Of a DNA stretch of 64,000 bases, positions 7,168-25,287 are shown in pieces; within the stretch, counting starts at the first letter, position 1, and each line of letters starts with the position of its first letter. Location of the stretch: assembly GCA_030041335.1 (NCBI GenBank), contig JASHOB010000196.1, positions 62,001 to 126,000 on the forward strand, given 5' to 3'. The stretch comes from Alphaproteobacteria bacterium. Its GTDB lineage: Bacteria > Pseudomonadota > Alphaproteobacteria > ATCC43930 > CGMCC-115725. The translations under genes and the position numbers were made by a program. A model generated the notes under the pieces. It worked only from the letters and a program-made list of their open reading frames with translations. It was not told the origin of the DNA and did not search any database.

Positions 7168-9139
<1,972 letters not shown>

Positions 9140-16040: not shown

Positions 16041-16748
16041 CTATCCGGCAGCGCGACGCACGGTCGAGGCATCCTGCCCGAACAGGATTTTGCGCGCATC
16101 AGGGCTGGTCGGTGACGTCGACTGGAATTGCTTGCCCTTGTCGTATGCGCGCACCGTCGCGGGACGCGCCTTGATAGTGTCTTGCCAACGCTTCAGGTGA
16201 GGGAAATCGTCAATCTTCTGGCCCAGGCGGTCGTAGGCCGTCGTCCAGGGATAGGACGCCATATCGGCGATCGAATAGTCGCCAGCGACGAATGCCCGGT
16301 CGGCAAGGCGCTTGTCGAGAACGGCAAAAAGGCGTCCGGTCTCTTTGACATAGCGGTCGATGGCATAAGACAGCTTTTCCGGCGCGTAGTGGGCGAAATG
16401 ATTGTTCTGGCCGGCCATTGGACCCAGCCCGCCCATTTGCCAGAACAGCCATTGCAAGACCTCGACCCGGCCGCGCAGATCGGCGGGAATGAATTTTCCG
16501 GTTTTTTCCGCGAGGTACAGCAGGATGGCGCCGCTCTCGAACAGCGAAATCGGCTTGCCGCCGTCGGCCGGATCGGTGTCGATGATCGCCGGCATGCGAT
16601 TGTTCGGAGAAAAGGCAAGGAATTCGGCCTTGAACTGTTCGCCCTTGCCAATGTTCACCGGAATGATCTCGTAAGGCAGACCGGTCTCCTCCAGAAAGAG
16701 TGTGACCTTGTGACCATTTGGCGTCGGCCAGTAATAGAGCTGGATCAT
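16041..16748 (-). CDS. Glutathione S-transferase (YfcG/YghU-type)
   Basis: This 235-residue protein has a thioredoxin-fold N-terminal domain (IQLYYWPTPNGHKVTLFLEE, then NRMPAI with the conserved cis-Pro, and LFESGAILLYLAEK for glutathione contact). The all-helical C-terminal domain includes DYSIADMASYPW, the conserved N-capping box. This fits the nu-class/YfcG group, which shows disulfide-bond reductase activity with glutathione. Its ATG overlaps the thiE stop by 4 bases (ATGA), so it is translated at the end of the thiamine operon, an unusual place for a GST. Confidence 0.9.
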   Translation of the reverse strand: MIQLYYWPTPNGHKVTLFLEETGLPYEIIPVNIGKGEQFKAEFLAFSPNNRMPAIIDTDPADGGKPISLFESGAILLYLAEKTGKFIPADLRGRVEVLQWLFWQMGGLGPMAGQNNHFAHYAPEKLSYAIDRYVKETGRLFAVLDKRLADRAFVAGDYSIADMASYPWTTAYDRLGQKIDDFPHLKRWQDTIKARPATVRAYDKGKQFQSTSPTSPDARKILFGQDASTVRRAAG

Positions 16749-17437
16749 GGCGGTTGCCTCGCTATTGGCTCCAATTTGGCCGAACTATGGCCTCCCTCCG
16801 GGGCGGCCACAAGGGTCTGATCAAGCACGGCGATGACGCCGCGAATCATCGTTTCCGGATCGTCCGCTCGCATCGCCGCGCCCATGATGGCGACTCCGGC
16901 GGCACCGGCGGCGCGGCATTGGGCGGCATTGCTTGCGTCGATGCCGCCCAGCGCGTAGACCGGAATCGCGGCTGCCTTGGCAAGTTCCGCCAAGCCGGCG
17001 AGACCCAGCGATGGACCATAATTCGGCTTGCTCGCGGTCGCGAAGATCGGGCTCAGGGTGACGTAGTCGGCGCCGAGCTCGGCCGCGCGCCGCAGCTCGT
17101 AGCGGTCATGGGCCGAAATGCCGATCGTCGCCCGATTGCCGAGATAGGCGCGTGCCGCCGTGATCGAGCCGTGACGCGGCAAATGCACGCCGGTGGCTGC
17201 GGTCGCCATGGCGGCGTCGCAATCGGCGTGGACGCTGATGGCGGCTCCCGACGGGGCGCCGCAACGGACGAGGCGTTGCAGCAGGTCGACGCGCTCCGCG
17301 CGCGAGAGATCGGGCTCGCGCAGGGAAATCCAGCGACAGCCGCCGGCTAACAGTGCCTGCGCCATCGCCAATAGCGGCCTAGCCGACTGCTTGCGATCGG
17401 TAATGACCAGCAGCGGCGGGACGGGCAGCGCCTTCAT
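16745..17437 (-). CDS. thiE: Thiamine phosphate synthase
   Basis: ThiE joins HMP diphosphate to the thiazole phosphate to form thiamine phosphate. The 230-residue TIM barrel has WISLREPDLS (phosphate/pyrimidine contact), the C-terminal phosphate loops ALGGID and GAAGVAIMGA, and YVTLSPIFATASKP. The HLPRHG segment replaces the usual HLGQ-type motif, and some features drift toward TenI-like paralogs, so a TenI role cannot be excluded. Its place directly after thiG in a TPP-riboswitch operon supports ThiE. A 4-base overlap joins it to the GST gene. Confidence 0.82.
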   Translation of the reverse strand: MKALPVPPLLVITDRKQSARPLLAMAQALLAGGCRWISLREPDLSRAERVDLLQRLVRCGAPSGAAISVHADCDAAMATAATGVHLPRHGSITAARAYLGNRATIGISAHDRYELRRAAELGADYVTLSPIFATASKPNYGPSLGLAGLAELAKAAAIPVYALGGIDASNAAQCRAAGAAGVAIMGAAMRADDPETMIRGVIAVLDQTLVAAPEGGHSSAKLEPIARQPP

Positions 17438-17441
17438 CTGC

Positions 17442-18212
17442 TCAGCCGCCGATCAGGCCAAGTTCCGGACTCGAGGGCTCGCCATGCGTACGCTTGGGGA
17501 TGCGTCCGGCAAGACGGGCAGCGCGGCCAGCAGTCACCGCCCCCTTCATCGCCCCGGCCATCCGTGCCGGATCGCGCGCCTTGGCGATGGCGGTGTTGAG
17601 GAGAACACCGTCGCAGCCCAACTCCATCGCAAACGCGGCGTCGGAAGCGGTGCCAATACCGGCATCGAGGATAACCGGTACTGAACTGGTGGCGACAATG
17701 CGCTCAATCGCGAACGGATTGACAATGCCGAGGCCCGAGCCGATCGGCGAGCCCAGTGGCATGACCGCCGCCGCCCCGCGGTCGGCAAGCTTGCGGCAGG
17801 TGACGGGATCTTCGTTGCAATAGGGCAACACCGTAAAGCCGTCGGCCACCAGTTCGTCGGTCGCCTGCAACAAATGCTCGACATCGGGATAAAGTGTTTC
17901 GCGATCGCCGATGAGCTCGAGCTTTATGAGATCGGTCGCCAGCGCCTCGCGCGCGAGACGCGCGGTCAAGACGGCGTCCTTTACCGTCGAACAGCCCGCC
18001 GTATTGGGCAACAACGTGTAGTGATTGCCGAGCAGATCGATCAAGCTGCCGGAATAGGGGTCGAGGCTAATCCGCCTTATCGAGACCGTGACCAGTGCCG
18101 GCTCGGCGGCCGCGAGTGAATCGAGCAGGACCTGGTGATTGGGATAGCCCCCCGTTCCCATGAACAGACGGGAGGGATAAGCGCGGTTCGCAATGGTAAG
18201 ATAATCACTCAT
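17442..18212 (-). CDS. thiG: Thiazole synthase
   Basis: ThiG builds the thiazole ring of thiamine from deoxyxylulose phosphate, dehydroglycine and the sulfur carried by ThiS. The ATG at 18212 gives 256 residues starting [20 protein letters not shown], the family start; the longer open frame upstream is unconserved. The catalytic lysine is in [10 protein letters not shown], and the barrel signatures [20 protein letters not shown] and [13 protein letters not shown] are intact. It lies 88 bases after thiS and 4 bases before thiE. Confidence 0.96.
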
Positions 18213-18300: not shown

Positions 18301-18507
18301 TTAGCCGCCTCCGAAAGGACGAACGATCTCGACTTCGTCACCCGCGGACAGCAGCGTCTCTTGCCAGAGCCGCGCCGGCACCACCGTACCATTGACCGCA
18401 ATCGCCAGGCCACGCTTGCCGGCCATGCCATGCGCCTCGATGAATGCCGCGACGGACCCGCCGGCAAACAGCTCGTCCCGGCCATTAATGCGGATGACGT
18501 CGCTCAT
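18301..18507 (-). CDS. thiS: Sulfur carrier protein ThiS
   Basis: This 68-residue ubiquitin-fold protein carries sulfur as a C-terminal thiocarboxylate for thiazole formation. It has [15 protein letters not shown] and [13 protein letters not shown], where the terminal Gly-Gly is the activation site; here it is preceded by one more Gly. The ATG at 18507 overlaps the thiO stop by 4 bases, showing tight translational coupling. Many ORF callers miss it because a longer, meaningless frame extends upstream. Confidence 0.93.
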
Positions 18508-19658
18508 GCCTCGGTCCTGACCTTGAATCGGTCGAGTGCAAATGGCCTGATGGCATCTTCGATCTCGCCGCTCAGAATATAGTGTGAGATAGCCCGGGCC
18601 GTGATCGGTGTCAGTAGGATGCCGTTGCGGTAATGGCCAGTGGCGTAAAGGAGGCCCTCGAGTTTGGTTGGTCCCAGGATCGGCGCGTCGTCGCGGGAGC
18701 CGGGGCGGAAGCCGCTCCACATCTCATCGATCGGCAGATCCTCGATACCGGGGATGGCCCGCCACGCGCCTTCGAGCAGCGCCAGCACCCCGCCGGCAGT
18801 CATAGCCGCGTTGAAGCCGCGCTCCTCGACCGTGGCACCGATGACCAACCGGCCATCGGTGCGCGGCGCGATATAGGCTTTTGCCGCCCACACTACATGG
18901 CGGATCAACGGTGATTCCGGTTCCATCCGCAGCGCCACCATCTGACCTTTCACCGGCCGGACCGGAGGCCGCAGCTCGGGCAGAATGCCGCCAATCTCGC
19001 TCGACCATGCGCCGGCCGCCAACACGACAATGTCGGCGGCATGGACATGCTGGGCAAGGCGCACGCCGACGAGGCGCCCGTTCGCGATCTCTATCGCGTC
19101 GACTTTCATGCCTTCGTGAAGCGTGCCGCCGGCCTTGGTGAAGGCTCGACCTAATGCCTGCACCAGCGCCCGATTTTCGACCTGGTGATCGCCCGGGCTG
19201 AAGATGGCGGCGGCAAGATGCGGCGAGAGATGCGGTTCGCGCTGACGCGCCTGGGTGCCGCTCAGCCATTCGAGATCGATGCCGAGTGAGCGTTGAAACT
19301 CGAAGTTGAATTTGAGCCGCGCGACATCGTCGCGGGTAAGCGCGAGCATCAAGGTTCCCTCGCGGCGCAGGAATACGGGCATGGCAGCCCAGTCCTCCAG
19401 CTCCGCCGCGAAATCGGGCCATAGGCGCTGACTCGCGCGATTGAGCGCGTAGAGCGCCTGCTCGCCCGGCTCGGCTTCGAGACCGGCCGCCAGCATGCCG
19501 GCAGCGGCCCAGCTCGCCCCGTGCCCGGTCCGGTCGCGTTCGAATAGGTCCACGACGCGGCCGGCCTGTGCCAGACGCCAGCCGATGCTTAGGCCGATGA
19601 CGCCACCGCCAACGACGACGATGCGCGGCTCGGTCGATCTACGATGCGACTTGGTGAT
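18504..19658 (-). CDS. thiO: Glycine oxidase ThiO, apparently with an AUC start codon
   Basis: ThiO oxidises glycine to the dehydroglycine used by ThiG. The protein has an FAD dinucleotide-binding fold at its N-terminus (RIVVVGGGVIGLSIGWRLAQ), the DAAO-family segments TGHGASWAAAGML and GARVEN-like HQVENRAL, and the C-terminal FAD loop GHYRNGILLTP. No ATG, GTG or TTG occurs in frame between the riboswitch and the FAD motif. An SD (AGGGAG at 19665-19670) sits 6 bases before an ATC at 19658, giving 384 residues, so translation probably starts there. The first ATG downstream would delete the FAD-binding motif. thiS overlaps the stop by 4 bases. Confidence 0.88.
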   Translation of the reverse strand: MTKSHRRSTEPRIVVVGGGVIGLSIGWRLAQAGRVVDLFERDRTGHGASWAAAGMLAAGLEAEPGEQALYALNRASQRLWPDFAAELEDWAAMPVFLRREGTLMLALTRDDVARLKFNFEFQRSLGIDLEWLSGTQARQREPHLSPHLAAAIFSPGDHQVENRALVQALGRAFTKAGGTLHEGMKVDAIEIANGRLVGVRLAQHVHAADIVVLAAGAWSSEIGGILPELRPPVRPVKGQMVALRMEPESPLIRHVVWAAKAYIAPRTDGRLVIGATVEERGFNAAMTAGGVLALLEGAWRAIPGIEDLPIDEMWSGFRPGSRDDAPILGPTKLEGLLYATGHYRNGILLTPITARAISHYILSGEIEDAIRPFALDRFKVRTEA

Positions 19659-19664
19659 GGCGGG

Positions 19665-19738
19665 CTCCCTTCGCTGGCATGATCCAGACAGGTTCCGTGG
19701 GTATAATCTCAGCCGGCAAAATGCCGGCACCCCAGCCG
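19665..19738 (-). promoter_or_regulatory. TPP riboswitch of the thiO-thiS-thiG-thiE operon
   Basis: On the minus strand the blocks GGGGTGCCGG, GGCTGAGATTATACCC, GGAACCTGTCTGGATC and ATGCCAGCGAAGGGAG occur in aptamer order. The last block contains the AGGGAG Shine-Dalgarno of thiO inside the closing stem, so ligand binding would directly mask ribosome entry. Confidence 0.92.
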
Positions 19739-19802
19739 TGTGTTTAATCTGGCAATTGCCCGCGCCCGCCGCAAGTCATTTCTGTGGCGGCGCGGCAATG
19801 GC

Positions 19803-22704: not shown

Positions 22705-22800
22705 TGGCGGAAGAGAGTGGGGGTCGAACCCACCAAGGACCGGCTGACGGCCCCTGCCGGATTTGAAGTCCGGCCGCCCCACCGGGGACGCTTCTCTTCC
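22705..22800 (-). tRNA. selC: tRNA-Sec (UCA)
   Basis: On the minus strand the 96-base sequence starts GGAAGAGA and ends TCTCTTCCGCCA, with an 8-base acceptor stem, discriminator G and an encoded CCA. The anticodon loop CTTCAAA carries TCA, which reads UGA. The long variable arm and extended acceptor are typical of selenocysteine tRNA. It sits 28 bases after selA. Confidence 0.96.
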
Positions 22801-22828: not shown

Positions 22829-24220
22829 TCACGGTGCCGGTGTCAGCGCCGCGAGATTGCCGATGAATCCGGCCTCGTCGTCGAGGCAGCGCAGATCGAG
22901 CAGCAGCGTGTGCCGCTCGATGCGTCCGACGACAGGGATCGGCAAGAGCCGTAGCCGTTTGGCGAGTTCATCGAGCCCTTTGCCCCGGATCGCCAGCCCA
23001 AAACTCGCAACGGTTTCGACCGGCAGGGCGCCTGACCCGATTTGGCTTTTGCACGGCGCCGCAGCGACGGTGAAGACGCCACCCAAGACGCGGCTCACCG
23101 CCGGCGCGATACGGTGAGCGACCGCTTCAATGTCGCCCGCCTGCCGGCTGAGATGTTTGAGCGTTGGCAAACAAGACGCGAGGCGGTCCGGGTCGCGGTA
23201 GAGCCGCAGCGTCGCCTCGATTGCCGCGAGCCGGATCTTGTCGACACGGAGTGCGCGTTTCAGCGGGTTGCGGTTGATTGGCGCGATGGCGTCGCGACGA
23301 CCAACGATGAAACCAGCCTGCGGTCCGCCCAGCAGCTTGTCGCCGGAAAAAGTGACGAGATCGGCTCCGTTTCGCACCGCTTCGGCGACGGTCGGCTCAT
23401 GCGCGAGGCCCCAGCGCGCCAGATCGATCAACGTACCGGAACCGAGATCGTGGGCCAGCAACGCTGCATGCTCGTGGGCCAGGGCAGCGAGCCGCGATGC
23501 CGCGACTTCGGCACGGAAACCCTCGATGCGGTAATTCGATGTATGAACCTTGAGCACGAGGCCAGTACCGGGGCCTAGCGCCGCGGCATAGTCCTTGAGG
23601 TGGGTGCGGTTCGTGGTGCCGACTTCAATGAGCCGCGCACCCGCCCGCGCCATGATGTCGGGCATGCGGAAGGAGCCACCGATCTCAATCAGTTCACCCC
23701 GCGACACGATCACCTCGCGGTCCCGGGCAAACGTGTTGAGCACAAGCACCACAGCCGCCGCGTTGTTGTTGACAATGGTTGCGTCTTCGGCGCCGGTGAG
23801 TTCGCATAGGAGCCCGCGCAGATGATCATCGCGCTCGCCGCGCCGGCCGCTGCCGAGGTCGAATTCAAGCGCCACCGCGTGGCGCATGGCTTTCGTCGCG
23901 GCTTCGACGGCGGCCTCAGCCAACACCGCGCGGCCAAGATTGGTATGCAGCACCGTACCGGTGAGATTGAAAACCGGCCGCAGCGATGACATGTCCTCGC
24001 GCTCAAGGAGCCGCCGCGCCGTGTTAGCAACCGCATCCGCGTCGGGCATATCCCGCAGCGCACTGGCACGATGTTGCGCGAGCGTCGCCCGCACGGCTTT
24101 GACGGTGCGGGTGCGGCCGAAAGTCTCGGCGGTGCGCCGTCCGCTATCGGCCCGCAGCACCGCATCGACGGAAGGCAGGCCATGCAATGAAGTCAGCTTG
24201 CTTTGGCGATGATTTCTCAT
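22829..24220 (-). CDS. selA: L-seryl-tRNA(Sec) selenium transferase
   Basis: SelA converts seryl-tRNA(Sec) to selenocysteinyl-tRNA(Sec) using selenophosphate. The ATG at 24220 gives 463 residues, the family length. PLP lysine K295 is in [13 protein letters not shown], and the surrounding signatures [28 protein letters not shown] and [11 protein letters not shown] are intact. It precedes selC by 28 bases and diverges from selD with only 26 bases between starts. Because selA, selC and selD are all present, the strain should make selenoproteins; selB is not in the window. Confidence 0.97.
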
Positions 24221-24246
24221 CGGCGACAAGGTACAGTCGATGTCAA

Positions 24247-25287
24247 ATGAAGACCACCCGGTTGACCGATCTGGCGCACGGCGGCGGTTGCGGTTGCAAG
24301 TTGGCGCCATCGGTGCTGAACAGCATCTTGGCGAACATGCCGGCGGCCGCGCCGTTCGCGAATCTGCTGGTCGGGGCCGAGACCGCCGACGATGCCGCGG
24401 TCTATCGCCTCAACGACCGACAAGCGCTGGTCGCGACCACGGATTTCTTCCTGCCGATTGTCGATGACCCATTCGAATTCGGACGCATCGCCGCCGCCAA
24501 CGCATTGTCCGATGTCTATGCCATGGGTGGTACGCCGATTCTGGCGCTGGCTATCCTCGGCATGCCAGTCGACAAGCTGCCGGCCGAAATGGTGCAACAA
24601 ATTCTTGCCGGGGGCGTCGCCATCGCCACCGCCGCGAACATCCCCATCGCCGGCGGCCACTCCATTGATGCACCGGAGCCGATCTATGGCCTTGCCGCCA
24701 TTGGTCTAGTCGACCCCGCGCGCCTGTTGCGCAACTCGACGGCGCGTGCCGGTGATACGCTGATTCTAACCAAGCCGCTCGGCATCGGCATTTACAGTGC
24801 GGCTCTGAAACGCGGCGAACTAGACGAAATCTGCTATGAGGAAATGCTTGCGTCGACGACGCAGCTCAATGCGGTCGGCGCCGAGCTGCCCGACCTCGCC
24901 GAAGTCCACGCCGTGACCGACGTCACCGGGTTCGCGCTGTTGGGTCACGCGCTCGAAATGTGCCGCGGCGCCAGCCTGTCCCTGTCCCTCGATGTTGCCC
25001 GCCTGCCCCTGTTCGCCGGGGCGCTGAAGCTGGCGCAGTCGGGCATTGGCACTGGCGCCGCCAAGCGCAACTGGGCGAGCTACGGCGCCGAGGTGACGCT
25101 TGCCGACGATATCGCGGCTTGGCAGCGCGATCTTTTGTGTGACCCCCAGACCAACGGCGGATTACTCATTGCCTGCGCACCCTCTGCCGCGCCCGGCGTC
25201 CTGAAATTGCTCGGCGCGCGCGGCTTTGCCCGGGCCTGCGAGATTGGTCAGTTCACGACCGGATCGGCAGGCATCAGGGTAAATTGA
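24247..25287 (+). CDS. selD: Selenide, water dikinase (selenophosphate synthase)
   Basis: SelD makes selenophosphate from selenide and ATP. The 346-residue protein has the reactive site HGGGCGCK, with Cys15 rather than Sec and Lys18, then DDAAVYRL and [21 protein letters not shown] for metal and ATP binding, and [13 protein letters not shown] near the end. The ATG at 24247 gives the family N-terminus. It diverges from selA, so the two probably share overlapping promoters. Confidence 0.96.

Follow-up and report, generated by a model that had tools for sequence, protein, structure and literature searches.

We find that thiO, the gene for glycine oxidase ThiO, is probably translated from a near-cognate AUC codon placed just behind a Shine-Dalgarno (SD) sequence that is itself the 3′ end of a TPP riboswitch aptamer. 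The gene lies in a 64,000-nucleotide stretch of an alphaproteobacterial draft genome of 262 contigs (the whole stretch is hereafter the window). The sequence evidence points to a genuine near-cognate start with weak, TPP-controlled ThiO output, a reading to which we assign a probability of roughly 0.82; we are highly confident in the narrower claim that the ATC is a real start codon. On the minus strand, the SD AGGGAG (19670-19665) is followed by the spacer CCCGCC (19664-19659) and then by the ATC (19658-19656), and the frame initiated by this codon remains open until a TGA at 18506-18504. The resulting protein of 384 residues (18504..19658, minus strand) exceeds the cut-off of the ThiO model TIGR02352 (361.3 vs 250.8 bits). 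No ATG, GTG or TTG occurs in frame from the ATC to the FAD-binding motif GGGVIG, and the sole canonical codon upstream in the same frame, a GTG (19730-19728), falls within the aptamer 72 nt before the ATC, with no stop separating the two. The sequence-only reading that drew attention to this site had stated that the interval between aptamer and FAD-binding motif is free of in-frame ATG, GTG and TTG, and that AGGGAG lies 6 bases ahead of the ATC; the window bears out both statements.

The aptamer (RF00059) was placed by cmscan at 19649..19744 on the minus strand with 61.9 bits (E 1.5e-10), above the gathering score of 54.3 bits. AGGGAG (19665..19670) constitutes its conserved 3′ end and is invariant across two alignments of relatives. 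By our reading of the Rfam alignment, AGG belongs to the 3′ strand of P4, GA forms the junction, and the last G opens P1, which in the window consists of three standard and two non-standard pairs. The earlier proposal that the SD is contained in the closing stem therefore stands for that last G, and the remainder has to be reassigned to P4 and the junction; the SD is, on this alignment, a part of the aptamer core that lies partly in P1. The same alignment places the AUC 5 nt past the last standard P1 pair. In the scheme of Barrick and Breaker, direct translation attenuation has a start codon at most 15 nt from the end of the aptamer core, and in direct-type TPP control the ribosome-binding site is located in the core itself (PMC2258182). 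Judged by sequence and alignment, the thiO riboswitch of the window is of this direct type. The minimum free energy of the window leader is not below that of shuffled sequences (z -0.52), and the corresponding fold fails to recover the aptamer.

Among 20 relatives tested, 12 pass the RF00059 gathering score, a set that takes in one locus with a GTG start (L151). In relatives of groups g6 and g11 the aptamer is recognisable and, where matched, scores 34.7-42.8 bits, below the gathering value. Seven loci (L022, L023, L027, L029, L030, L032 and L034) have aptamers with GC-rich P4/P5 arms in this same range of 34.7-42.8 bits, which routine annotation would miss. At an E threshold of 0.01 no TPP element was matched in L035 or L040; the conserved aptamer motifs nevertheless align in both. 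As a separate observation, matches to the mmgR/suhB sRNA family (RF00519) lie a short distance upstream of the thiO riboswitch in group g6 relatives, at L027 1160-1230 (-), L035 1144-1213 (-) and L040 2874-2944 (+); the match in L027 (44.6 bits) is above the gathering score and the other two are below it.

To place the window in context, ThiO loci were collected from 43 genomes of the order, which represent two families and of which 34 gave a ThiO match, from 385 genomes of the class and from named contigs, and the start region was read in 136 distinct loci. The start was assigned as a codon in frame 3-13 nt after AGGGA, with ATG taken first, then GTG or TTG, then ATT, ATC or ATA, and finally CTG. 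Within the order, the 34 readable loci (window included) have 13 ATT, 10 ATC, 7 ATG, 3 GTG and 1 CTG; 23 of the 34 thus carry ATT or ATC (AUY in the RNA) at the place of the start and the other 11 ATG, GTG or CTG, which shows that thiO can do without a weak AUY start. Among these other codons are further weak starts, namely the CTG of L024 and the GTG of L041, L042 (13 nt after AGGGA) and L151 (at a distance of 4 nt), and in L032 a CTG 6 nt ahead of the ATT is a possible alternative start. Outside the order, five alphaproteobacterial loci have ATT or ATC (L048, L054, L055, L129 and L130). Two of them, L048 and L055, lie on named contigs without a known family code and might themselves be members of the order. 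TTG or GTG is the start of many other TPP-linked thiO genes. The Poribacteria-type thiO genes, in which no TPP element was recognised, carry an ATG near the motif, but their distance precludes a clean comparison. Plasmid records yielded Azospirillum, with ATG at thiO in the two records read, and otherwise an unannotated Methylobacterium alone. A search with a fixed pattern over the 385 class genomes, a sample with few genomes of the window's family, matched the window's own site alone.

These counts bear directly on the possibility that sequencing or assembly error turned an ATG into the ATC of the window, which the sequence-only reading had offered as an alternative while naming shared ATC codons in relatives as support for a real start. 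The draft state of the genome, with its many contigs, leaves some room for such an error; ATC or ATT stands at the same place in the genomes of many other species, however, which refutes error as a general explanation, and we consider it extremely unlikely for the window as well. Relatives do share the codon, since the 10 ATC loci of the order extend beyond the window and are accompanied by the 13 with ATT.

A further constraint comes from loci in which the start is forced to be non-canonical. Of the 28 AUY loci, 12 (L012, L013, L014, L020, L033, L034, L035, L037, L040, L048, L054 and L150) contain no ATG, GTG or TTG from the upstream in-frame stop to the FAD motif, and a non-canonical start is therefore required there; in these loci the AUY is, by sequence, the codon with proper SD spacing. 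In 8 of the 28 the upstream in-frame stop lies only 15-24 nt ahead of the AUY codon, and in L034, L035 and L040 this stop is a TGA that overlaps the SD itself. If a conserved near-cognate start is defined as one kept across species at SD distance without a canonical alternative, the tally is 23 of 34 loci in the order, with 12 forced. Initiation in the window could instead be postulated to occur at the GTG inside the aptamer, which would add 24 residues and make the ATC an ordinary isoleucine codon, and the window frame is indeed open upstream as far as this GTG. We regard this as highly unlikely given the 12 forced loci and the 8 closely placed stops; moreover, the SD of such a start would have to fall in the 5′ strand of the aptamer, and the conservation of codon 1 amid varying neighbours would be left without a reason.

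This conservation was assessed in 22 ungapped loci with identical spacing, the window included, which are mutually related and are not independent draws. ATN occupies codon 1 in 21 of the 22 loci, with CTG in the remaining one, and each of codons 2-12 in 0-5 of 22, which is more than chance would give at codon 1; the contrast is due in part to a selection rule that seeks start-like codons at 3-13 nt, and the equal spacing and absence of exceptions are not explained by that rule. Changes were then counted on a ThiO protein tree estimated by a quick IQ-TREE run, an unrooted gene tree on which gain and loss cannot be told apart. The three positions of the codon require 1, 0 and 7 changes, respectively, positions +7 to +33 mostly 6-12, and the distribution of AUY vs other starts at least 11. 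At the third base C, T and G occur but never A, and G is present in just 3 of the 22 loci. In L032, L148 and L150, where the spacing is shifted, the AUY is retained and in frame. On this alignment the A and U of the start codon are held and the third base drifts about as fast as its neighbours, a pattern consistent with a start codon that depends mainly on two of its bases; by itself it is no proof of selection for weakness.

Two readings of this conservation need to be weighed against a weak start under TPP control. The first holds that the AUY is conserved as an element of an RNA fold in the expression platform, with the true start at a nearby non-canonical codon. In its favour, the AUY lies shortly 3′ of P1, and the surrounding sequence is similar among close relatives (GGGAGYCCGYCAUY). 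We nevertheless judge it very unlikely, as the bases preceding the codon vary (GUC, GCC, GAU, GAG, AAG) with AU kept in frame, the distance to the SD shifts in L032 and L148 while AU stays in frame, and the leader of the window folds no more stably than its shuffles. The second reading accepts the weak codon as real and treats it as merely tolerated, with little ThiO needed, a strong SD at hand and a third base that drifts without regulatory meaning. We give this reading a little less than even odds. The 7 changes of the third base among C, T and G, about as many as at neighbouring positions, are in its favour, as is the occurrence of ATG, GTG and CTG at the thiO start. Against it, a survey of 36 genome triplets, covering 61,358 ancestral AUG starts, recorded a single change from AUG to AUU (PMC5622118), which makes such a change normally very rare, and G occupies the third base in few loci; neither point is decisive.

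The neighbouring genes and other genes of the order help to delimit the phenomenon. Downstream of thiO on the minus strand is thiS (18301..18507; TIGR01683, 54.2 bits), whose ATG overlaps the thiO stop (ATGA, 18507-18504), an overlap found in most relatives. It is followed by a thiG-like gene for a thiazole synthase of 256 residues (17442..18212, minus strand, start chosen at MSDYLT), for which NCBIfam gave weak related-fold matches only and whose name is taken from operon position and a reading of its sequence, and by a thiE-like gene for thiamine phosphate synthase (16745..17437, minus strand) that scores 117 bits against TIGR00693, below the cut-off of 145.1. A second TPP riboswitch of the genome (9035..9144, minus strand, 74 bits) precedes thiC (7168..8997, minus strand), which has its own SD, AAGGAGG, and an ATG start at 8997-8995. 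We used thiC as a control, noting that a TPP riboswitch ahead of it is established in the window only; it starts with ATG in 12/12 loci of the order that were readable by pattern, window included. Elsewhere in the window, a selenocysteine tRNA (22709-22800, minus strand, 76.4 bits) adjoins open reading frames whose translations mark them as candidate selA/selD (22829-24310, minus strand, and 24187-25287, plus strand).

The non-AUG start of infC is well known; among the 23 loci of the order that could be read (the pattern missed 7 of 30), ATA occurs 21 times and ATC twice. Given the AUY starts of thiO and the ATA or ATC starts of infC but the ATG of thiC, the pattern is gene-specific and does not reflect a general looseness of start choice, and we reject a clade-wide loosening on the basis of the thiC starts. 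It could also be imagined that a special initiator tRNA with anticodon GAU reads AUC and AUU as efficient starts. Nothing we found speaks for this, and its probability is close to nil: the anticodon is CAU in each of the 22 initiator-stem matches from relatives, GAU in none, and thiC keeps its ATG. In the genome of the window itself, a match with the anticodon TAT proved to be a truncated tRNA 3′ half that ARAGORN did not accept. A comparison with an initiator sequence of alphaproteobacterial type recovered two initiator-like tRNA 3′ halves there (G000:C65:694-743 and G000:C236:242-291, with 90% and 84% identity), and an intact initiator tRNA was not recognised at the matches read; the halves possibly reflect an assembly gap or scars of integrated elements.

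Returning to a near-cognate start under riboswitch control, we propose that thiO is translated from AUC (AUU in many relatives) 6 nt past the strong SD formed by the aptamer 3′ end. When TPP is scarce, the aptamer would open and 30S subunits would bind the SD; the ordinary CAU initiator tRNA would then start at the AUC with the first two bases alone matched, presumably with formyl-methionine, and ThiO would be produced slowly. Binding of TPP would lock P4 and P1, bury the SD and stop initiation. Translation of thiS would probably be coupled to that of thiO through the ATGA overlap, and the AUC start is likely to be sensitive to IF3. Low ThiO output from AUC is plausible by analogy, as AUU and AUA starts with extended SDs reached about 10% of AUG in Staphylococcus aureus reporters in poor medium (PMC13009471); the penalty of near-cognate starts differs between species (PMC9680021). 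One may go further and postulate that the weak start was selected as a further gate placed in series with the riboswitch, such that expression needs both an open aptamer and a permissive, IF3-limited codon selection. We hold this to be rather unlikely; if true, leak in the TPP-bound state would be removed and thiazole synthesis would be tied to the state of the translation machinery. Both this proposal and that of a merely tolerated codon nest inside our best explanation, and the probabilities behind our wording do not sum to one.

Several known systems resemble the arrangement in part. The infC gene for IF3 has a strong SD followed by a conserved AUH start, which in this same order is ATA or ATC, but is autoregulated by its own product, whereas ThiO is a metabolic enzyme behind a TPP riboswitch. 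E. coli pcnB has a natural AUU start that is said to limit expression and, to our knowledge, has no riboswitch. Conserved AUU or AUC starts are, as far as we know, established for very few bacterial genes. Staphylococcus ccpN (AUA) and cvfC1 (AUU) likewise have conserved near-cognate starts with strong SDs; these are genes of Firmicutes with an extended SD close to the start and no riboswitch described, and their starts were measured experimentally (PMC13009471). Direct-type TPP riboswitches share with the thiO leader a purine-rich aptamer 3′ end that serves as the SD and a start within 15 nt of the aptamer, but the available excerpt of PMC2258182 makes no mention of near-cognate AUU or AUC starts. 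A literature search found no published report of a non-AUG thiO start.

In the case described here, an AUU or AUC start adjoining a riboswitch that supplies the SD turns up repeatedly in one gene of metabolism, both in an alphaproteobacterial order and on several further branches of the ThiO tree. Gene finders restricted to ATG, GTG and TTG must misplace or truncate AUY thiO starts, which amounts to a class of annotation error. The gene also offers a simple system for asking whether a weak start codon reduces the leak of a riboswitch.
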